A stretch of DNA of 64,000 bases, taken from Methanoplanus sp. FWC-SCC4. Its GTDB lineage: Archaea > Halobacteriota > Methanomicrobia > Methanomicrobiales > Methanomicrobiaceae. Below, one piece after another: positions 3,697-46,166 of this stretch. Under the pieces are notes generated by a model. The model did not search any database, was not told the origin of the DNA, and saw only the letters and a program-made list of their open reading frames with translations. A program made the position numbers and the translations under genes. Each line of letters starts with the position of its first letter. The stretch's first letter is position 1. The DNA lies in the NCBI RefSeq assembly GCF_032878975.1, contig NZ_CP043875.1, forward strand, positions 1,542,370-1,606,369, written 5' to 3'.

Positions 3697-4119
3697 ATGG
3701 AAGAGATGCCAGAATACCAGATCTGTATGAAGTGCGGAAAGAGAAGCACCCCGTATATGAAGAATTGCTGGAAATGCGGAACACCGTTTTTTCTTGGCGG
3801 TGAAGACTACTCTTTAATTAATCCAAATGATGCTGTAAAAGAAGCAGTGGAAACTGTGGAACCTGTTATAGAGGTTGAAGAAATAATGCCATGCAAACTC
3901 GACGAGATGGGTTTCTCCGACAAAATTTTTGCATACAGCCTGATGTTTCGTGGAGATATTATCGTAAAATTCTGCGGATGTGAGAAATGCAGGGATGCTT
4001 ACCGCGATCTTCTGGCATTCTTCAGGGAATGCAGTCCTGAAGATGAGGCTATTATAGAAGAGGTAAACAACACCGATTTCAAGGATGTTGCAATCGATCT
4101 CTCAGTCTACGGATTCTGA
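3697..4119 (+). CDS. Small zinc-ribbon protein of unknown function
   Basis: About 140 residues with an N-terminal double-CXXC zinc ribbon (CMKCGKR...CWKCGTPF). A second cysteine group (CGCEKC) lies near residue 107 in an acidic, helical C-terminal half. ATG at 3697 is preferred: the upstream in-frame TTG at 3676 has no ribosome binding site, while a GAGG lies 13-20 bases before the ATG. Such ribbons bind zinc and often serve in nucleic-acid or protein binding. No named family was recognised. Confidence 0.6.
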   Translation: MEEMPEYQICMKCGKRSTPYMKNCWKCGTPFFLGGEDYSLINPNDAVKEAVETVEPVIEVEEIMPCKLDEMGFSDKIFAYSLMFRGDIIVKFCGCEKCRDAYRDLLAFFRECSPEDEAIIEEVNNTDFKDVAIDLSVYGF

Positions 4120-4331
4120 ACTTCACGGGAATCACGTGGAATAAAAAACATAACTTTTTTGCAGCGTATTTTTTTAAAATAGTGTTTTTAACTTTTTTTA
4201 TATTCCTGCACAGATCATCAAATAATAATCAAGGATGCCGGATACATCCGTAAAACTCAATATTCAATTTTAACCCCGTTTTATACAAAATTATTGAAAA
4301 TTATACAAAAAAATTAAAAATATGGAATTTT

Positions 4332-5087
4332 TTATTCCGTATCTTCCGCTGTTATCCAGAGATACAGAAATGCCGCAAGAACAGCACCGATTATTGGGCC
4401 TGCAACATATATCCAGAAGGATGCAAGCACATCGGGTCCTCCAAGGAGAAGATCTGCCATCATCGGACCAAATGAACGTGCAGGATTAAGCGAAGAACCG
4501 GATATGTTTCCAATAGTCGTGATTACTCCCGCAACAGTCAGACCGATTACTGCCCCTGCAATCCCCGGTGTTACCTTTTCGTCAGATGCAACCGCCATGA
4601 TTACAGACATCAAAATGAATGTTCCGATGATCTCAGCCAAAAGTGCGGAATATATGCTTATTCCGGGAAAAGGTGCTGTTGCACCAAGTCCCCCGGTCAA
4701 TACAGCACCCTGGCCTGCACAAATAGCAAAAAGGACACTTCCAATAAATGCACCCGCCATCTGTGCCAGAACATATACAACCATATCCTTTGTTTCAAAT
4801 TTACCCGACACCCAGAGGGCAATTGTAACCGCAGGGTTGATATGGGCACCTGAAATCCTGCCAAAGGCATAGATTGACGCCATTATGGCAAATCCGAATG
4901 CAAGACCTATTGCAAGCCAGTCACCAAGACCTCCCAGAAAACCTATACCTATCGAAAAATCATTGGGAGGTGTCCCTCCGTTTGCAAGCATAAGTGTAAT
5001 GGCAGCTGCTCCCGCACCAAAGAACACCAGAAACATCGTGCCCAGAAGTTCAGCTGAAAACCGTTTTCCCAAAGAAGCCATTGCCAT
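4332..5087 (-). CDS. aqpM: Aquaporin / glycerol facilitator (MIP family, AqpM-like)
   Basis: The 251-residue channel has six membrane segments and the two signature half-helices: INPAVTIA at residues ~82-89 and LNPARSFGP at ~201-209. It resembles archaeal AqpM, which conducts water and, in vitro, small neutral solutes. It is the third gene of a minus-strand cluster after DUF2193 and DUF2180, starting only 6 bases after the DUF2180 stop, which suggests co-expression and perhaps a role in moving a small uncharged compound. A GAGGAG ribosome binding site lies ten bases before ATG 5087. Met at 5081 is an alternative start. Confidence 0.92.
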   Translation of the reverse strand: MAMASLGKRFSAELLGTMFLVFFGAGAAAITLMLANGGTPPNDFSIGIGFLGGLGDWLAIGLAFGFAIMASIYAFGRISGAHINPAVTIALWVSGKFETKDMVVYVLAQMAGAFIGSVLFAICAGQGAVLTGGLGATAPFPGISIYSALLAEIIGTFILMSVIMAVASDEKVTPGIAGAVIGLTVAGVITTIGNISGSSLNPARSFGPMMADLLLGGPDVLASFWIYVAGPIIGAVLAAFLYLWITAEDTE

Positions 5088-5093
5088 TTTAAA

Positions 5094-5303
5094 TCAGCTC
5101 CTCTTTACAGCCTCATAACAGTCGGGACAGAGAATGCGGGGTAGTGTTTTACTCACTTTCTTTGCAGGAAAAGGATATCCGCCTTCCCACATCTCCTGTT
5201 CTTCCCGTATGGCATGTTTCATACAGACACCCATCCCACAGACTATACAGATTGCAACCGCTTCTGAATCATAACCTTCCTGAGCACAGACATAACATTT
5301 CAT
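5094..5303 (-). CDS. DUF2180-like small zinc-binding cysteine protein
   Basis: The 69-residue protein has MKCYVCAQEG, CIVCGMGVCMKHA and ILCPDCYEA, that is three cysteine pairs plus His able to bind two zinc ions in a treble-clef or B-box-like arrangement. The start is set by GGAGG eight bases before ATG 5303; the longer open frame to 5465 merely runs into the DUF2193 gene. It lies between DUF2193 (43-base gap) and the aquaporin (6-base gap) and is probably cotranscribed with both. DUF2180 proteins are known mainly from methanogens and have no established function. Confidence 0.8.
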   Translation of the reverse strand: MKCYVCAQEGYDSEAVAICIVCGMGVCMKHAIREEQEMWEGGYPFPAKKVSKTLPRILCPDCYEAVKRS

Positions 5304-5346
5304 CTCTTTTAACCTCCAAAAAATTTTAGAAATCTTTTCTGATTTC

Positions 5347-6843
5347 TCAGACTGCCTCTCTGTACTGGCAGTATTCATGGCGGAAGTCAACGCATGATGC
5401 AGATGCACAGTTCTTGCATGCACGAACAGGCGCTGCCGCTGTATTCTTGTCAAGTGCAACCACATTTGTCATCAGTGTGGCTGTTACAGGCTCTGATGTC
5501 AAAAGACACGGATAATCAGCGAGACTCATCATTGCGGCGAATCTGACCGTTATCGCACATGCAGGATATACATAACGCTGCGGATTCTGTATAACATCAT
5601 GTGTCTGGACAGGAATCAAATCAATCGGGAGACCGCTTATGTTCGGCCTCATCGGACTGGATGTTCCGTTTTTAACCTTCCTTGCCCTGTCCATTATGTT
5701 CCAGCCGCGGTACACCATGTCCATGAAGTCACAGTTGTGAAGTTCTGCCGCAGCTCCTCTTGTCGGATAGAGCTGGACAAAATTGTGGAATCTGCGGGTT
5801 AGGAATTCAACAACTGAAGGTCCGTTGAATCCGTCAAGTTCAAGGATATACTCAGCCGCTGCAGCACTCGAACCGGTTGCAAGGGAAAGAACCTGATTTA
5901 CGCTGTTGAATTTGTCAACATTCTGCCGGAGCGAGTTTTCAATGACATCAGTGACAGCTTCGATTATTCCCATAACCATGTCATCCTTGCACATGTTGTA
6001 AGTTGACTGGGCAATGTGGTGGGCGATGTCGCCGACACAATATGCAGGAACAGTTACAATGTTTGCGTAATGGACACCGTCATCGATTGCCGCCTTTACA
6101 TACGGCTCCATCTCTTTACGATAGTCCCGCATGTATTTCCTGACATCAAAGGAATCCATGTTTACAGAGTCCATTAAATCAGCCTGTGCCGAAACAGGAC
6201 TTTCATAGATATACTTCAGCTCTTTTATTTCGTTTGAAACGGCATCTGAAAGGGTTTTTCCGTCTTCCACATCGTGTGCAAAGACATCTCCGACACCATA
6301 AGAAGTATTCATACCCCAGGATTTTGCAGCCAGAATTGCTTTCTTATGATCCTGCGGGATATCAGTTTTTGTGAGTATCTGATTGACCACATTGCTTGTA
6401 CTTCCCGGAATCAGTGCAAAATCAACTACGCATGTGGGACCATAAAATCCGGCATACCTTCTTGCCGATTCAAGACCGATTAGTGCCTCAGATTTCCCGA
6501 TCTGTTCGATGAATTTGTCAACACTTTTTTTGAACCCTTCATCCTCTTCACAGAGAATTTCAAGTACTACCGGTGTCTGATAATGCTCAACATAAGGGTC
6601 ATCCTCGGGTTTTACAAAGTTTGTAAGAGCCGTGAGTGTATCAAAATGTGCGTTTACCGAATACTTATGAAGGTCTATTACCGCCTTTGACTGTCCTTCA
6701 CCAGCTGTCATTTTATTGACAGCATCAACATAAGCCTGCCCGTCTTTTACTTTAAAGTCAGTACCTCTTTTGGCTTTTAGAACGGAAACATCAGCACGCT
6801 GTGCACCCATTGCTTCATCAATCATTTTCTGGTAAATTGACAT
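5347..6843 (-). CDS. DUF2193 family protein (methanogen-specific, unknown function)
   Basis: The 498-residue soluble protein matches the DUF2193 family, found essentially in methanogens. It is mainly helical, with recognisable stretches ESARRYAGFYGPTCVVDF and LYPTRGAAAELHNCDF. The tail carries a cysteine cluster (CKNCASASCVDFRHEYC) that could bind a metal or Fe-S centre. ATG 6843 has AGGAGG eight to nine bases upstream. It is the first gene of the DUF2193-DUF2180-aquaporin operon and is preceded by a long AT-rich region that probably holds the promoter. No biochemical role is established. Confidence 0.85.
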   Translation of the reverse strand: MSIYQKMIDEAMGAQRADVSVLKAKRGTDFKVKDGQAYVDAVNKMTAGEGQSKAVIDLHKYSVNAHFDTLTALTNFVKPEDDPYVEHYQTPVVLEILCEEDEGFKKSVDKFIEQIGKSEALIGLESARRYAGFYGPTCVVDFALIPGSTSNVVNQILTKTDIPQDHKKAILAAKSWGMNTSYGVGDVFAHDVEDGKTLSDAVSNEIKELKYIYESPVSAQADLMDSVNMDSFDVRKYMRDYRKEMEPYVKAAIDDGVHYANIVTVPAYCVGDIAHHIAQSTYNMCKDDMVMGIIEAVTDVIENSLRQNVDKFNSVNQVLSLATGSSAAAAEYILELDGFNGPSVVEFLTRRFHNFVQLYPTRGAAAELHNCDFMDMVYRGWNIMDRARKVKNGTSSPMRPNISGLPIDLIPVQTHDVIQNPQRYVYPACAITVRFAAMMSLADYPCLLTSEPVTATLMTNVVALDKNTAAAPVRACKNCASASCVDFRHEYCQYREAV

Positions 6844-26948: not shown

Positions 26949-27382
26949 TTATTCAGCTTTTCAATAATTATGAGTTCTGTTTCCGGATCGTCCTCAAATC
27001 CGACTGCACGAAGTGCCGCCCGGATTATAAGTTCCGGTGGAATTGCCTCATAGCGCTCGCCCTTATAGTCAACAGCCCTGCATTCAACAAAATCCTCTCC
27101 GGTAATGCATGAACATGACTTACATTCAGTGAAGGAAACCTCCATCCCGTCAATTAAATCCTCAAGATACATCCCGTTGAACAAAACTGCGTTTGACTCG
27201 GAAACTGCAGCTGCAGGAAGTTTTGTCTCAACAAACCTCACAGAAATTCCCTCATCCTGAAGAAAAAGGCTAATCTCTCTTATAACCGACATCACATTTG
27301 TTCCGGTCTCACTGCATCTCTCACATGTATTGCTTACATCTTTTCCAATGTGACGCCACTCAACCACAAGTTCCTGCTTCAT
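26945..27382 (-). CDS. DUF2703 family protein
   Basis: The 145-residue protein matches DUF2703: MKQELVVEWRHIGKDVSNTCERCSETG near the start, and CKSCSCITGEDFVECRAVDYKGERYEAIPPELI in the second half. At least six cysteines lie in CXXC-like pairs and could bind arsenite or a soft metal. The gene overlaps both neighbours by ATGA, showing tight coupling with a DGC protein and with arsC. The family recurs in arsenic operons of anaerobes but has no proven activity. Confidence 0.8.
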   Translation of the reverse strand: MKQELVVEWRHIGKDVSNTCERCSETGTNVMSVIREISLFLQDEGISVRFVETKLPAAAVSESNAVLFNGMYLEDLIDGMEVSFTECKSCSCITGEDFVECRAVDYKGERYEAIPPELIIRAALRAVGFEDDPETELIIIEKLNK

Positions 27383-27789
27383 TTTGTCATCCCTTTGCCT
27401 TCCCAGACAGCAGAGACAATCTCTTCAATATCATCATCAGTATACTCAGAAGAGCCTGCTTTCTTAATTCCAAGGTCTGTAACAATCACATGCTGGCAGG
27501 GAACAATACCCTTATCTGCCGCAATTTTTCCGGCACACTTAGAATTGCACCCGTCGAGAATCAAAACACCATCAGAATCTTTTACAGCTTTTAAAAGACC
27601 TTCAGGCCCGTTTGCAAGAAGGGCAACACATGCAGCCGAACCAAATCCTTCCTGCGTCAGCTGAACTGCTGCAAGGTTTGTAAGCTGCCCGGTATTTGCA
27701 ACCCCTGCACAGGCAAAAATGATTATATTTTTGCCTTTTTCAGACCCGCAGCCACAGCCTCCGCATGAACATGATGGTTTATCAGACAA
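27379..27789 (-). CDS. DGC-domain protein with Cys-rich N-terminal extension
   Basis: The 136-residue protein has an N-terminal cysteine-rich segment (CSCGGCGCG within the first 15 residues), then the DGC fold: IFACAGVANTGQLTNLAAVQL and LILDGCNSKCAGKIAADKG. It is the longer of two DGC proteins in this operon. The extra cysteines could chelate arsenite or copper-like metals. The gene starts two bases after the thioredoxin-like gene and overlaps DUF2703. Confidence 0.8.
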   Translation of the reverse strand: MSDKPSCSCGGCGCGSEKGKNIIIFACAGVANTGQLTNLAAVQLTQEGFGSAACVALLANGPEGLLKAVKDSDGVLILDGCNSKCAGKIAADKGIVPCQHVIVTDLGIKKAGSSEYTDDDIEEIVSAVWEGKGMTK

Positions 27790-27791
27790 TT

Positions 27792-28028
27792 TCAGGCCCC
27801 CAGAATTTCCTTTATCTCTTTTACATCCGCAACTCTGCCTGAAACCTTCAGTTCATCGTCCACCATTAACGCAGGAGTGAGCATAACTCCCTTGTCAAGA
27901 ATCGCATCAAGCTCTTCCACCTTGATAACTTCAGCTTCAATTCCAAGTTCACTGACCGCTTTCTCCACATTTTTCATAAGGCGTTTGCATTTCATGCATC
28001 CTGTTCCAAGCACTTCAATTTTTACCAT
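27792..28028 (-). CDS. Small thioredoxin-fold CXXC protein (redox-active disulfide protein 2 type)
   Basis: The 78-residue thioredoxin-like protein has an active-site TGCMKCKRL (CXXC at residues ~11-14) and the cis-Pro region GVMLTPALMVDDEL. This short form is common beside permeases in methanogens. It may pass electrons to ArsC or bind arsenite. GGAG lies ~11 bases before ATG 28028. The gene overlaps the end of the upstream gene by seven bases. Confidence 0.88.
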   Translation of the reverse strand: MVKIEVLGTGCMKCKRLMKNVEKAVSELGIEAEVIKVEELDAILDKGVMLTPALMVDDELKVSGRVADVKEIKEILGA

Positions 28029-28321
28029 TTTTTATTCATCTCCTTTAAAAATTCATTAAATATTGCATCGGCATACTTCTCTTCAGCAGCTTTTGGCACA
28101 TAGTTGTAAATCTTAACTTTTTTAAGAAGCTCTCTTTTAATCTCCTGTTCATTCCTAAGATCAGAGCTTGAAACTTCACCGAATATTGAATCAAGCATAT
28201 AAAGACCTGTCGGCACACTGCAGATATCAATCCTTCTGACCTGTCTCAATGCTTCGGCAGCACAGCAGGGTTTTTTTATCTTTCCTTTTACTCCCTCTTT
28301 GTTATCAGTATTGTCCTTCAT
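28022..28321 (-). CDS. Conserved-looking hypothetical protein in arsenic operon, 99 residues
   Basis: Not recognised. It has a lysine-rich N-terminus, a CC pair (KKPCCAAEALRQVRRI), a single further Cys and a charged helical C-terminal half (AAEEKYADAIFNEFLKEM). It lies between the permease (51-base gap) and the thioredoxin-fold gene (7-base overlap) on the same strand. A cytosolic partner of the permease or a metal chaperone is possible; neither is shown by sequence. Confidence 0.6.
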   Translation of the reverse strand: MKDNTDNKEGVKGKIKKPCCAAEALRQVRRIDICSVPTGLYMLDSIFGEVSSSDLRNEQEIKRELLKKVKIYNYVPKAAEEKYADAIFNEFLKEMNKKW

Positions 28322-28372
28322 AATTTCCTTCCAGTATACCAGGGATTCATTTTTTATTCACGTTTACCGCAT

Positions 28373-29443
28373 TTAACCAATAATCAGGCCATATGCAAAT
28401 CCTGCCAGTCCTGAAAAGACGATTACAAGAAGTGCGTAAACTCCGGTTTTCTTCCATCCCATTATCCTTGATATGACAAGCAGTGAGGGAAGGCTTACAC
28501 TCGGACCTGAGAGGAGAAGCGAAAGTGCAGGCCCTCCTGCCATTATACCGGATGTGTATCCAAAAGTTGTTCCGATTACAGGCACTTCAAGAAGTGTCGG
28601 CATATACAGAATTGTTCCGATGAATGATGCCAGCATTGTGGATTCAATTGAGTTTGTCCCAAAGAAAGGCTGGAAAGTCTCAGGCGGGAGGAAGAATGCG
28701 AGCATTCCAAGCACAAATGTCCCGACAATCAGTATCGGAAAAATCTTCTTTGTCAAATCCCATGTTTCAAGACCCCAGTCGGTGACCTCATCCCTGTCAA
28801 AGAAGTATATCAGCAGAACTGCTGCTCCAAGAGTAAACAGGTAAATTATCGGGAATTTTATCATCCAGTCAGCCTGTGCAGTTCCGGCAATTAATATTCC
28901 TACCAGAAATACAAAGAACAAAGGAATTATCCATTTCGGCCTTTCAACTTCAGGTGCAGGTGAAACAGGCATTTCTGCCATCTTCTTTTTTGTTTCACGG
29001 TCATGTGATCTAAAGAGAAAAGCCATTATGAGTCCGATTACGATTGCAAGTATGATTGCAAATACTGCCCTTGCAAGTCCGAGATCAAATCCGAGCACTT
29101 TTGCGGTGTAAACAATTGCAAGGATGTTTATCGCCGGCCCTGCATAGAGAAAAGTAGTTGCAGGCCCTATACCGCTTCCACGTTTAAACAGACCTGCAAA
29201 CATCGGAAGAATCGTACATGAACATACTGCAAGAACTGTTCCGGAAACCGAGGCAAGTCCGTATGCAACGCTTTTTTTTGCATCCGGGCTGAAATACTTC
29301 AATATTGCTTCCTTTTTGACGAGTGCGGCTATTGCGCCGGCTATGAAAAATGCAGGAATAAGACATGTCACAACATGCTCGGAAAGGTATCCAAGCAGCG
29401 TGTCCCACCCCATCAGAAGTGATCCTGTTATTAAGTCTATCAT
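28373..29443 (-). CDS. Permease of the ArsP/DUF318 family
   Basis: The 356-residue membrane protein has about eight to nine hydrophobic segments. The conserved SVSGTVLAVCSCTILPMFAGLFKRGSGIGPATTFLYAGPA region with its CSC motif identifies the PF03773 permease family. ArsP members export trivalent organoarsenicals, and other members are linked to arsenite or thiol export. It is the first large gene of the operon, preceded by a 52-residue Cys-rich protein. ATG 29443 is preceded by a weak AGGATG site. The substrate is inferred from the neighbours only. Confidence 0.85.
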   Translation of the reverse strand: MIDLITGSLLMGWDTLLGYLSEHVVTCLIPAFFIAGAIAALVKKEAILKYFSPDAKKSVAYGLASVSGTVLAVCSCTILPMFAGLFKRGSGIGPATTFLYAGPAINILAIVYTAKVLGFDLGLARAVFAIILAIVIGLIMAFLFRSHDRETKKKMAEMPVSPAPEVERPKWIIPLFFVFLVGILIAGTAQADWMIKFPIIYLFTLGAAVLLIYFFDRDEVTDWGLETWDLTKKIFPILIVGTFVLGMLAFFLPPETFQPFFGTNSIESTMLASFIGTILYMPTLLEVPVIGTTFGYTSGIMAGGPALSLLLSGPSVSLPSLLVISRIMGWKKTGVYALLVIVFSGLAGFAYGLIIG

Positions 29444-29593
29444 TTACTTCATCCTTTGAGAGTTATTATTCAATTATTGCTTAAATTGTTAAAAGATCAC
29501 AAATCCGCCAAAAATTTTCTTTTAAAATTTTTAACAGGATTTTATCTTTGCCTGTGATGTTTCTTCAGGTTGTTTTAAGGATAAATAAGTACT

Positions 29594-29752
29594 TCATCTG
29601 ATTTCTTCTTCTTTTTCTTCTGATTTATTTAATTCACCTGTACAGCACCCACACGAACATCCGCATCCGCCGGCGGTACCAATTATTTTTTTCATCAGCG
29701 ATGCGAAACCTGATTTTTTTACATTTTCTTCTTTTGCGTCTTTTAAAGTCAT
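29594..29752 (-). CDS. Small cysteine-rich protein (52 residues) leading the arsenic operon
   Basis: An open frame from ATG 29752 to TGA 29594 gives a 52-residue protein. It has a lysine-rich amphipathic N-terminal half, a CGCSCGCC cluster (residues ~30-37, five Cys) and a Glu/Lys-rich tail. GGGATG lies ~8 bases before the ATG. It sits directly under the palindrome-flanked promoter and ~150 bases before the permease gene. The Cys cluster recalls metal- or arsenite-binding peptides, and the N-terminus of the DGC protein downstream is similar in style. It was found by reading the sequence, not by family match. Confidence 0.6.
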   Translation of the reverse strand: MTLKDAKEENVKKSGFASLMKKIIGTAGGCGCSCGCCTGELNKSEEKEEEIR

Positions 29753-40295: not shown

Positions 40296-41408
40296 TCAAC
40301 GATCATGAGAGTGTAAGACGGACTGATATCTTCCTGATTCAGGTAATTTACAGGCAGGGTTTTCTTCACAGGATCCTGACATAACCGGTTCGTCCCACAA
40401 AATTGTCGGAGAGCAGGGATTTCTTTTGTGCATCATGTAATTTTTCCGGACAGATTCAGGATAGCGGTTGGCATAGCAGTATGAGCAAAGATGCGGGCAT
40501 GTGTTGTACTGTCCTATATCGGTGCTCTCAATGCACCGGCAGGATTCCCGCTGCCCTTTATCTTTTTTTGCATATTTAGAGAGGTAACGGATTATATCAG
40601 GATCGCTTTTTGAGATTCTCCCGATAAGATCCGGGTCAACACATGCATTTTTAAAAATCCAAAAGGAAGAGAGATCAATATCCTCACCACACGATGCTGC
40701 GGATATTTTCCAGCTATGACAGAGAGATGAGAGTTTTTCTGCTAAATCCTCCATTTCATGTTTTTCAAATTCACGGATATTCAAAGTCCCTGCTGTTTTG
40801 GATCTCTGTATGTTCCAATTCACACTTTTGTAAAGATCAATAAAACTGAAGACAAGTTTTTCTGTGTAAGGTGATATTTCATCTCCAATTTTCCGGATTC
40901 TCTCAATAAGGGTTTCTACTGTGATTTCGTCTGAGAGCAGGAGGGGATCAAACCGCCAGATGGCCCTCTCTGGTCCCAGTTTTTCAGACAATTTTTTGAA
41001 TGTCAAAATCCTTTCAGCAAGGGGCGGAACATTTTTTTCGAGGCCTTCTTTGTCGTAGTCGTTTAGCGTGTACTGAAAATAGTATTTTATCCCCTTTTCA
41101 TCGAGAAAATCAAGGTGCTTCATTAAAGGTTCCGGATTTTTCGTCCAGAATACCACCACTTTTACGCCTGAGAGATCTATTAACAGGGGTCTTTTGTTGT
41201 AAGGATTAAATCTTAGACAAAAGCCTTCCTTTAGCCTTTGAATGAACCACTCAGAATAGAATGCGGGGATGTCAGTTGTCCTGCTTACCGAGAGAATCAC
41301 CGGGTGTTTTGTATTTGTGGCAACTTCTTCCCTCGTATTTCCGCTTTTTATCAGGGGCTCATTTTGGGTTTTTGCGAACATTTCTTCATCAGGGATCCGT
41401 GACTGCAT
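40296..41408 (-). CDS. DUF1848 family protein
   Basis: 370 residues. The DUF1848 start VILSVSRTTDIPAFYSEWF (~38-56) is clear, followed by VVFWTKNPEPL and FQYTLNDYDKEGLE. A C-terminal cysteine cluster, CRCIESTDIGQYNTCPHLCSYCYAN, could hold an Fe-S centre. The barrel-like pattern suggests a radical-SAM-like or TIM-barrel enzyme; activity is unknown. Start ATG 41408 has no clear ribosome binding site; Met 10 is an alternative. Confidence 0.82.
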   Translation of the reverse strand: MQSRIPDEEMFAKTQNEPLIKSGNTREEVATNTKHPVILSVSRTTDIPAFYSEWFIQRLKEGFCLRFNPYNKRPLLIDLSGVKVVVFWTKNPEPLMKHLDFLDEKGIKYYFQYTLNDYDKEGLEKNVPPLAERILTFKKLSEKLGPERAIWRFDPLLLSDEITVETLIERIRKIGDEISPYTEKLVFSFIDLYKSVNWNIQRSKTAGTLNIREFEKHEMEDLAEKLSSLCHSWKISAASCGEDIDLSSFWIFKNACVDPDLIGRISKSDPDIIRYLSKYAKKDKGQRESCRCIESTDIGQYNTCPHLCSYCYANRYPESVRKNYMMHKRNPCSPTILWDEPVMSGSCEENPACKLPESGRYQSVLHSHDR

Positions 41409-41936: not shown

Positions 41937-43619
41937 TCACTGACCACAGGCGCAGTCATCACCACATGTGCACTCGTCGCCGCACTCGCAGTCGTCATCA
42001 TGGCAGTGGCACTCGTCATCCTCACACTCACACTCACACTCCTCAATCTCCCACCTGACAGCAGTGAAAACAGGGCCTCTTACATCCACCTTTTTGTTAT
42101 TGTCAGTGATAAACCTCATTGCCCAGGGTTCAACCGAGAGATTAAGTTCGGAAGGCACCTTGACCATCTTCACATCAACGCTGCCGCTCTCGGCATAAAA
42201 GACAGCCTCCTCAATTCTTGATGCTGCAAGGTTTGCAATCGCCTCAATAAATGAGAGATGTGCATCAACGCCCTTGTCACGCTGTTTCTTGTAATTCTTC
42301 GTATCCGGAAGCCCCAGTATTTTTCCGTCCACTACAAAGATGTCATTTAGGGCGGCAGGGCCGAGAAGCTTTGAATTCTCCTCATCCTCATAGACAAAAA
42401 CCTTTATTTTGCAGCCGCAGTATGAATCCGACTTCCATGCAAGAAACTCACAGGGACTTATGGCATCTGCATTCTCCCTCGCAACAGCGGAGATTGCCTC
42501 TGCAATTTCAACACCAACACAGCTCTCAGGCTCTTCCTTTAAAAATACGCTACGGGCAATCTGCAGATCTGAGAAAGACTGCGGGAAAAACTGCGGATGG
42601 GTAAGAGCCCTGACATCCTCGGCCTCATACTCAATCATTGCAAGACGCTCAACACCAAGACCCAGATTCATAACCGGAACCTCAACACCATAAGCTGCAA
42701 GGGAATGAGGTGAATAGATTCCAAATGTTGCAACCTCAACCCATCCGTGAACAGGGTGCTTTGCATACACTTCAGTCTGCGTATCAGGCACATAATACTT
42801 AGATCTCTTCTCATCCGGCCTGAACTCAAAGTCAGTAAACCCAAAAGCTGAGAGAAGAGAAGCAGCAACCGCCTTGCCGTCCTCAACCGACACACCTTCC
42901 CCTGCAATTATGCATGATGCGGAATGATATGTCATAAGCCTCGTCGGCCCTTCCTCTTGTTCGCGGCGGAAACAGCGGTCAATCGAAAACTGCCTGATTG
43001 GAAGCGGAACTTTGTCCCATATCTCACCAAGGGTCATAAACCATCCCGAAGTCATATGTGAACGAAGGGTTGTCCTCGAAGACTCAGGGCAAAGCTCGCG
43101 AAACTCCGGGAAGACCTCATCCATAATTCTGACAACAAGACCATCATCAGTGCCCAGAACAACAGAAAGCTCATAGGTCAGCTCATCCCCGTCAATCTCT
43201 GACTTCTTGTAGGAATGAAGCTTCTTTCTAAGATTCTCCTCAACCTCGGCATCAAGAGGCTTTCCTAAAATCTCTGCGATCTGATCAAGCTGTTTTTTGC
43301 CAATACCGACATTCGGACGCGGAAGACCGCCAAGATAAAAAACCCTGTCCAGAACAGCAGAAGCCTCAGGCCCAAACTGCTTATATACATCAGATTCATC
43401 AATAAAAACCGGAACCCGTGCCTCATCAAATCCCATCATCAGATAGGCCTGGCGGAGACGCTCGATAGTCTCTGCAATCGGGTGCGGCTTTGCACGGTGA
43501 AACTCCATCCTCGGATATCTCTGTGAAACAGGCGGGGTATCCAGAACCTCTTTTCCCGCATGCCATGCCTCATCAAAATCTTTCTTAGCCAATTCCCTGA
43601 ATTCTTCCGCATCAAACAT
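41937..43619 (-). CDS. sepS: O-phosphoseryl-tRNA(Cys) synthetase (SepRS) with Cys-rich C-terminal tail
   Basis: The 560-residue class II aminoacyl-tRNA synthetase joins O-phosphoserine to tRNA-Cys; SepCysS then converts it to Cys-tRNA, the methanogen route to cysteine. Signature blocks are visible: FREQ-type [40 protein letters not shown], and motif 3 [12 protein letters not shown]. The usual family sequence ends near [15 protein letters not shown]. Here ~34 more residues follow (527-560), with 11 Cys and 2 His among Asp/Glu. The tail is unlike the SepRS sequences I know. The gene starts three bases after the taw1 stop and ends the translation operon. The stop (41937) leads into an AT-rich gap. 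Confidence 0.95.
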
Positions 43620-43621
43620 AA

Positions 43622-44521
43622 TTATTGCCGCTCCATTAAAACAACCCGGGATACCGGGTTCTCATCTATTATTTTATAGTCGCAGTATTTTGAGATTTCC
43701 AAAGCGAAATCACGTACATACGAATGCTCAGGCATATTCTCCTGCAGGAGTCTCTGTCTGCTGTGCCCGACAAACATATAACCCTTAACCTCGATAAAAT
43801 CAGCGCCTGAATCCTGATAAATCGCAGCATAGCCGGCAGGATCAATATCATTTATTCCCTTAACAACAGTCGTCCTTATTGCAGAACGCCTCTCCTTTAA
43901 AAGTCTGGTACTACTCAGGATTTCATCCCAGAAATCCTCATCCGGCCTGCATATTTTCAGATAAGTTTCCCTGTCAGGTGCATCAACAGAGATGTAAGTC
44001 TGATAGGGATGACACAAAGAAAGCATCTCAGGCTTAGTCCCGTTTGAAACCAGAAAAGTGGTCTTTCCGGCAGAATTGAGTCTGTCAATTAATTCCGGCA
44101 GACGCGAATACAAAGTGGGCTCACCTGAGAGCGAAATCGCAATCATATCGGGATTGAGAGCCTCTGACCAGAGTTCCTTTGTAGCAGTGCTCGATTCGAG
44201 AATATAATTATAGCCTGCAAGTGACTTCTTCTGAAGGGGAAGCATCCGCTCAATAATTGTATCAACAGAGCACTCTTCCTCTTCTTCTATCTCATACTCC
44301 ATCGACCGCCAGCAGAAAAGGCATCTTTGGTTGCACTTTAAAGTTGGCGTCATCTGAACACAACGGTGACTGGAAATACCGTAAAACTGATGCTTATAGC
44401 ACATCTCGCCGCCCTGAAGAGCACGCTTGTTCCACATGCACGGCTTTAGGGCAGCCGACGACTTATTTGAAAAAAACTGATAGCCCTGTTTAATAAGGGC
44501 CTTACATGCTTTCGATTGCAT
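43622..44521 (-). CDS. taw1: tRNA 4-demethylwyosine synthase (Taw1), radical SAM
   Basis: About 299 residues. The radical-SAM/Fe-S segment [19 protein letters not shown] has the CX3CX2C cluster, and a second Cys group ([22 protein letters not shown]) could bind the second cluster seen in Taw1/TYW1. It makes 4-demethylwyosine at position 37 of tRNA-Phe. SLSGEPTLY and [16 protein letters not shown] are recognisable. ATG 44521 overlaps the end of argS by 20 bases, so the genes are coupled. The longer frame from 44530 starts at a TTG. Confidence 0.9.
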
Positions 44522-46166
44522 CGATACCAAGTGTTAAAAGTGCTTCCTTAAGTGTATTCTGTGAAGCCTTAACGAGTGTAAGCCTTGCATCCCTAACATC
44601 ACCTTCGGCTTTCAACACAGGATTGAAGCGGTAGAAAGTATTGAAGATATCTGCAAGCTCCCTTGCATAGATTGCAAGGACATGCGGCCTTAAATCCCTT
44701 GATATCTCATCGATAACTTTCGGGAAGAGTGCAATATGCTTTGCAAGCGCAATCTCCTGATCTTCTGTCAGTGTGTAATTTTCTGTAAATTCATCTGCCT
44801 TTTTGAGAATTGAACATGCACGGGCATGAGCATACTGAATGTATGGTGCACTCTGCTTTTCAAAGTCAAGAGCCTCCTTCCAGTTGAAAACAGTTGACTT
44901 CTCCTGTGAAACACGGATGATATCATAGCGTATTGCACCGACTGCAACCGACTTCGCAATGCTCATCTTCTCATCATCGGGAAGCTCGGGTCTTCTGAGT
45001 GTAACCTCTTCAAGAGCCCTCTTTGTAACCTCTTCAATCAAATCATCGGCGGAGATGAACTTGCCTGCACGTGTACTCATTGAACCTTCAGGAAGGGAAA
45101 CAAACTCAAAGAAGACGATTTCAGGCGCCTTATCGCCAAGAAGCGTCATTGTTGCCTGAAGCTGTGCACCGATTAGTTTATGGTCGGCTCCGAGGATGTT
45201 GACAATTTTGTCAAAATTATCGCTCTTCCACTCGTGATACGCAAGATCGCGGGCAGCATAGACTGATGTTCCGTCCGATCTCCTCAAAACATAGTCCTTC
45301 TCAAACCCGAACTCAGTCAGATCAAGTGCAAGCGTATCCTCATGCTTTGCCTGAGGAAGAGACTCAAGGCGGTGAAGAACATTTAGCATAAGCTTGTTTT
45401 TGACAAAATCGCTCTCGTAGATGAATCTGTTGTGAGGTGCATTGAGAGTAATAAGAGTCTCTTTCATTCCCTCAAGACAGAGTGAGACTGCATCCCTGAA
45501 CTTTCTGACCATCTCGGGATCGCCCTGCTCAATTAACGCCATCCTCCTGTCAATCTCAGCCTTAAGAGATTCGTCTTCAGCAAGGACACGGTTTGCCGCA
45601 ACGTAGACATCCGCAACATAGCGGTCGCCTTTCTCGCCTTCCTTTCTTGGAATATCGAGGTTGTCAAATCCCCATGAAACGATTGCAATCTGGCGTCCCA
45701 TGTCATTTACGTAATACTCGACATCAAGGTTGTACCCGGCTTTTCTGAAGACTCTTGAAAGTGTATCGCCAATGACGGAATTTCTGATATGCCCTACATG
45801 CAAAGGCCCATTTGGGTTTGCGCTTGTATGCTCAAGACATGCACGCTCAGGTTTGTCCGGAAGCTGTCCGTAGCCTTCCAAAAGTGCCGCCTTTAATACT
45901 CCCTCAATGTAGAATTTCCCAAATATAAAATTGATATAAGGACCTTTTGTCTCGATTTTTATATCTTCGCCCTTTAATTTATCTTCAAGGAGTGTGGAAA
46001 TCTCACCTGCAATCTGTGCAGGGTTCTGCTTTTTTATCTTTGCAAGCGAAAAGGCAACGGTGGTTGCAAGATCGGCATGCTCGCCCCCGTCACCGAGCAT
46101 TACATCATCCTGACCTGTTACTTCCCGCAAAGTGTCTTCTATTTTTTTGTATGTCTGAAAATACAT
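44502..46166 (-). CDS. argS: Arginyl-tRNA synthetase
   Basis: 554 residues of class I ArgRS. The HIGH-like motif SANPNGPLHVGHIRNSVIGD lies at ~114-133. SLPEGSMSTRAGKFISADDL is the KMSKS-like region, and the N-terminal additional domain is present. The C-terminal anticodon-binding domain closes the protein. It lies 27 bases after the release-factor gene and overlaps taw1, so it is part of one translation operon. Confidence 0.97.
   Translation of the reverse strand: MYFQTYKKIEDTLREVTGQDDVMLGDGGEHADLATTVAFSLAKIKKQNPAQIAGEISTLLEDKLKGEDIKIETKGPYINFIFGKFYIEGVLKAALLEGYGQLPDKPERACLEHTSANPNGPLHVGHIRNSVIGDTLSRVFRKAGYNLDVEYYVNDMGRQIAIVSWGFDNLDIPRKEGEKGDRYVADVYVAANRVLAEDESLKAEIDRRMALIEQGDPEMVRKFRDAVSLCLEGMKETLITLNAPHNRFIYESDFVKNKLMLNVLHRLESLPQAKHEDTLALDLTEFGFEKDYVLRRSDGTSVYAARDLAYHEWKSDNFDKIVNILGADHKLIGAQLQATMTLLGDKAPEIVFFEFVSLPEGSMSTRAGKFISADDLIEEVTKRALEEVTLRRPELPDDEKMSIAKSVAVGAIRYDIIRVSQEKSTVFNWKEALDFEKQSAPYIQYAHARACSILKKADEFTENYTLTEDQEIALAKHIALFPKVIDEISRDLRPHVLAIYARELADIFNTFYRFNPVLKAEGDVRDARLTLVKASQNTLKEALLTLGIDAIESM

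Follow-up and report, generated by a model that had tools for sequence, protein, structure and literature searches.

A clade-restricted, cysteine-rich acidic tail on the SepRS of the Methanomicrobium group and its putative role as a metal-thiolate appendage

The SepRS encoded in the window (the whole 64,000-nucleotide stretch of the Methanoplanus sp. FWC-SCC4 genome analysed here) continues for 34 residues past the universal end of its family, and this tail consists largely of cysteine and acidic residues (11 Cys, 2 His, 15 Asp/Glu and no Lys or Arg). Sequence comparisons and a structure model point to a tail of single origin that is maintained by selection and predicted to be disordered. We propose that it represents a lineage-specific, metallothionein-like metal-thiolate appendage that would bind soft metals, a reading to which we give an even chance.

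SepRS has a common end residue throughout the sampled archaea, and an apparently selected, Cys-loaded appendage in one clade amounts to a natural experiment. Setting tailed against tailless close relatives directly asks if cysteine synthesis is under feedback from metal, sulfide or thiol state, and the same comparison bears on the sulfur supply to Cys-tRNA in methanogens. The open-access literature searched contains no description of SepRS tails, Cys-rich synthetase tails or the Methanomicrobium SepRS tail, and two surveys of SepRS/SepCysS diversity (PMC5424206 and PMC8762117) make no mention of a C-terminal SepRS extension or tail.

The SepRS gene and its C-terminal extension

The SepRS locus comprises the following features.

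41937..43619, minus strand: SepRS (O-phosphoserine--tRNA ligase, sepS), 560 aa, identified with TIGR00470 and Foldseek
42042..43619, minus strand: canonical SepRS core, residues 1-526; the end of 2du3 corresponds to residue 526, and the stop codons of sister genera fall here
41937..42041, minus strand: Cys-rich acidic tail (residues 527-560 and the stop codon), from the translation; pLDDT below 50 for 530-560
42021..42041, minus strand: hexamer repeat (GAGTGT)3.5, as read on the coding strand, which opens the tail and encodes ECECECE (Tandem Repeats Finder: 3.5 copies of a period of 6, 100% match)
43622..44530, minus strand: TYW1 (4-demethylwyosine synthase), directly upstream of SepRS (TIGR03972, 371 bits)
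40296..41408, minus strand: DUF1848 protein (PF08902), downstream of SepRS and in the same direction

By its core features, the window protein is an otherwise ordinary SepRS. It scores 673.6 bits against TIGR00470 (cut-off 380.65), with residues 2-526 spanning positions 3-533 of the 533-position profile, and it carries PF01409 and PF18006, the class II PheRS-like core and the SepRS_C anticodon domain. Its best Foldseek match is 2du3_A (E=6.6e-53); this crystal construct of the A. fulgidus enzyme, 534 aa long, aligns over its full length with residues 2-526. The genome is a single contig of 2.31 Mb, about 99% complete, and shares the gene order aRF1-ArgS-TYW1-SepRS with Methanomicrobium mobile. 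SepCysS occurs twice above cut-off in a profile search, and CysRS was found above its family cut-off in none of 28 family genomes (the window genome and 27 others), so the cysteines of the tail would be supplied by the SepRS/SepCysS pathway's own product.

An earlier note on this DNA had reported some 34 extra residues beyond the family end, with 11 Cys, 2 His and many Asp/Glu, and a clean reading into them with no frameshift. Both observations hold: positions 41937-42041 are exactly 34 codons plus a TGA stop, TIGR00470 and 2du3 both end at residue 526, and the frame stays open without a stop. Since homologous tails occur in six further genomes, the tail is not a sequencing error private to this one; these tails, the single-contig genome and the unbroken frame led us to reject sequencing or assembly error as the source. 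Base-shuffled, stop-free versions of the tail contained 1.2 Cys on average and reached 11 in 0 of 20,000 trials; Cys content lies far above that of shuffled versions in each of the seven tails. We exclude both chance and assembly error as the origin of the tail.

The tail is also not part of a genome-wide habit of Cys-rich tails, a candidate explanation that we rejected. Among the C-terminal 35-mers of 449 ORFs, about 20% of the genome, that of SepRS alone holds more than 4 Cys, and the next richest holds 4. Pattern scans (CxCxxCxC, CxCxxxCxC and CxCxCxC) covered the whole window genome, and ORFs were read at part of the matching loci; none of the loci read gave a further enzyme carrying a tail of this kind. 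Apart from the SepRS tail itself and two small proteins of the window, these loci gave short ORFs that, where checked, lay off-frame or antisense to longer genes.

In the AlphaFold model of the window SepRS (mean pLDDT 79.6 including the tail), the core is fairly confident and matches 2du3. Residues 517-527 form the final strand of the C-terminal domain, and pLDDT falls below 50 for residues 530-560; the tail is thus predicted to be a disordered appendage at the anticodon-binding end of SepRS.

Elsewhere in the window, a minus-strand cluster (27379-29752) resembles a module for the handling of metals, arsenic or sulfur; its members were named by eye.

29594-29752, minus strand: 52-aa Cys-rich protein (...GGCGCSCGCC...)
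28373-29443, minus strand: permease-like membrane protein
27792-28028, minus strand: small thioredoxin-like protein
27379-27789, minus strand: protein with N-terminal CSCGGCGCG

Distribution, origin and maintenance of the tail

The earlier note had suggested mapping the tail across SepRS homologues of Methanomicrobiales. With one genome per species, we read C-termini from 60 loci of a scan across GTDB, a few of them truncated, from the 28 family genomes and from 47 further SepRS of many families in the same phylum. Across these three sets the Cys-rich tail is confined to the window genome and six relatives, all of the Methanomicrobium group and including M. mobile, rather than being present in all SepRS. 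It is found in 0 of the 47 further C-termini and, among SepRS with readable ends, in no member of Methanomicrobiales outside the tailed clade. The nearest sister genera, by inference Methanolacinia- and Methanoplanus-like, have a stop codon right after RW[EK][IF]E. Searches with tail peptides were insensitive, missing the known tails of genomes G017-G022, and hence carry little power for absence elsewhere. In one incomplete genome, SepRS is split by a frame change near residue 198-200 (G007:C13:29982-31570), likely an assembly error.

In a tree of SepRS cores, the seven tailed proteins form a single clade (support 100/99) with about 20% core divergence, so a single gain is enough. The comparison indicates that the tail arose once and later varied in length: the seven tails measure 10, 16, 16, 27, 29, 29 and 34 residues, with 3, 5, 5, 7, 8, 8 and 11 Cys, respectively. 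Those of the six relatives are homologous to the window's but shorter (10-29 aa, 3-8 Cys), and all seven share a composition of 3-11 Cys, 4-15 Asp/Glu and 0-1 Lys/Arg. Six begin with RWEIE-[PQ]-[TS]-E-C-x-C and the window protein with RWEIE-E-C-E-C. By the route that we envisage, the ancestor of this group would have lost the stop codon that followed RWEIE; the comparison shows that the Cys/Asp/Glu-coding extension then grew and shrank through short in-frame repeats while its cysteines were retained. Length differences among relatives are whole codons, and the GAGTGT repeat, a likely slippage site, points to replication slippage as part of the lengthening route.

Several features indirectly support translation of the tail, namely these whole-codon length changes, the selection described below and base composition. 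Tail GC is 56-67%, as expected for coding DNA, relative to 20-35% in the 150 bases past the stop. In the M. mobile trio (three close relatives), 10 of 22 tail substitutions are synonymous against 18% expected without selection (P=0.003, or P=0.04 with a transition-weighted expectation), and tail dN/dS is roughly 0.06-0.24. This suggests purifying selection, modestly given a short tail and three close relatives. The trio retains every one of its 7 shared Cys columns, and Cys codons change only between TGC and TGT, although avoidance of amino-acid changes at Cys sites, judged from 7 such columns in 27, does not convince alone. Tail dN is roughly tenfold that of the core (0.07-0.15 vs 0.007-0.012). 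Overall, composition and cysteines appear to be maintained while the remaining positions drift.

The same data bear on whether the extension is simply tolerated, with slippage of GA(G/A)TGY-type repeats after stop loss yielding Cys and Glu codons in a flexible, harmless and near-neutral tail. The perfect hexamer repeat with which the window tail opens, the 10-34 aa length spread and the elevated tail dN speak for such an origin. However, the tail has been kept in seven species of a clade so diverged in its core, the trio combines an excess of synonymous changes with retention of every shared Cys, each tail exceeds its shuffled versions in Cys, and the tailless sisters indicate that ending at RWEIE is the normal state. 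We regard a near-neutral tail as possible, if rather doubtful.

Putative roles of the tail

Metal binding is, by inference, the most plausible role. Soft metals (Zn, Fe, Ni, Co, Cu or Cd) would be bound by the CxC clusters together with nearby His and carboxylates, in the manner of metallothioneins and metal-binding tails. This reading is suggested by the composition, the repeated CxC, the His and acidic neighbours, the disorder and the sole PDB sequence match of the tail, Cd-metallothionein 6qk5. That match is weak (E=0.0096) and driven by composition, with E-values of 1.5 and 3.9 for the separate stretches; in Pfam, three tails returned no match up to E=10. Because Cys number and spacing vary across the clade and one tail carries the minimum of 3 Cys, a fixed metal site is not implied.

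Closely spaced cysteines within a disordered acidic segment could instead serve as a thiol or redox sensor or as a solubility tail, in which reversible disulfides, without metal, alter SepRS assembly or protect the enzyme. The CxC pairs and His favour metal, and the methanogens considered here are strict anaerobes with a reducing cytoplasm, which argues against disulfide chemistry; we consider this role quite improbable.

If the tail does bind metal as a thiolate appendage, its metal load or thiol redox state may act on SepRS, or metal or sulfide may be held close to the machinery that forms Cys-tRNA; both consequences, and any regulatory effect on aminoacylation, are speculative. A further step would have the tail, its thiolates loaded with metal or sulfide, tune or feed the formation of Cys-tRNA, through a metal- or sulfide-gated SepRS or a relay to SepCysS; this seems to us doubtful. 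Such a gating or relay device on an aminoacyl-tRNA synthetase of the indirect pathway is not described in the open-access literature searched.

The relay has its own points in favour. The tail thiols would pass persulfide, sulfide or an Fe-S unit to SepCysS for the conversion of Sep-tRNA to Cys-tRNA. SepCysS acts on the SepRS product and is described as persulfide- and Fe-S-dependent, and the exact mechanism of sulfur supply to Cys-tRNA in methanogens is not yet fully elucidated (PMC5424206). In class I methanogens, SepCysE joins SepRS and SepCysS through the SepRS anticodon domains, its N-helix touching loops at the interface of two such domains (PMC5688128). The modelled tail of the window SepRS exits from its C-terminal domain. 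Against a relay, tailless sisters use the same SepCysS, and both SepCysS copies of the window genome retain their own cysteines (SVCDNC...ELMGC and SACDQC...EMLGC). The tail therefore replaces nothing lost, and we rejected it as a substitute for missing SepCysS persulfide cysteines. A sulfur or Fe-S relay is, in our estimate, unlikely.

The second SepCysS of the window genome (G000:C1:2304522-2305658), present in addition to the canonical copy, has at its N-terminus a domain that by eye looks SepCysSn-like (SepCysSN type). This type also occurs in the genome G017 and in the tailless Methanoplanus-like genome G024, and a tie between tail and fusion was rejected on the latter. The canonical SepCysS (G000:C1:1302000-1312000, locus positions 3853-6212) is convergent with a ThiI-like gene (by eye), with an overlap of a few bases; a similar neighbour is seen in several relatives.

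Finally, the earlier note had raised, as a speculation, the idea that the tail acts as a readout, its translation needing 11 Cys-tRNAs that SepRS helps to make. Across the clade, completing SepRS would require 3-11 Cys-tRNAs from its own pathway, and supply would feed back on expression of SepRS or of a downstream gene. The lack of CysRS above cut-off in the 28 family genomes does make the tail dependent on SepRS/SepCysS. However, stalling in the tail would cut SepRS when Cys-tRNA is scarce, a positive feedback of the wrong sign for homeostasis. Cys number is variable, and the codons of the window tail are mixed (6 TGC and 5 TGT). In attenuators and leader peptides, regulatory codons lie upstream of a conserved regulated gene, whereas this tail ends the coding region. 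Moreover, no downstream gene at the SepRS loci compared shares the tail's distribution. The DUF1848 gene, a conserved SepRS neighbour, lies downstream and in the same direction in the window genome, as it does in three of its tailed relatives and in tailless Methanolacinia- and Methanoplanus-like genomes, and it is absent from three tailed ones; we rejected a link to the tail as the distributions differ both ways. The readout thus finds no support here, and we consider it highly improbable.

Relation to known systems

Relative to described SepRS (TIGR00470; PDB 2du3, 2odr and 5x6c), core residues 2-526 of the window protein are about 50% identical to A. fulgidus SepRS in the structural alignment. 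Fold and core end are alike, and the Cys-rich tail sets the window protein and its six tailed relatives apart.

Metallothioneins such as 6qk5 resemble the tail in their repeated CxC, in cysteines making up about one third of residues, in the lack of aromatics and in being disordered when ligand-free. They are small and stand alone, whereas the tail, only 34 residues at the end of a 560-residue protein, is an appendage of a roughly 60 kDa enzyme, strongly acidic and non-homologous to them. With no Pfam match and a weak PDB match, the tail falls outside the described metallothionein families; at most, it would work like a metallothionein. Escherichia coli SlyD likewise carries a disordered, metal-binding C-terminal tail of Cys, His and acidic residues on a folded enzyme. 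The SepRS tail differs in its host protein and in having fewer His, and its metal binding is putative.

Within the SepRS-SepCysS system itself, the nearest counterparts are the transsulfursome adapters SepCysE and SepCysSn (PMC5688128, PMC5424206). These are helical or tRNA-binding domains to which the tail bears no similarity, but they too are lineage-specific additions to the same system.
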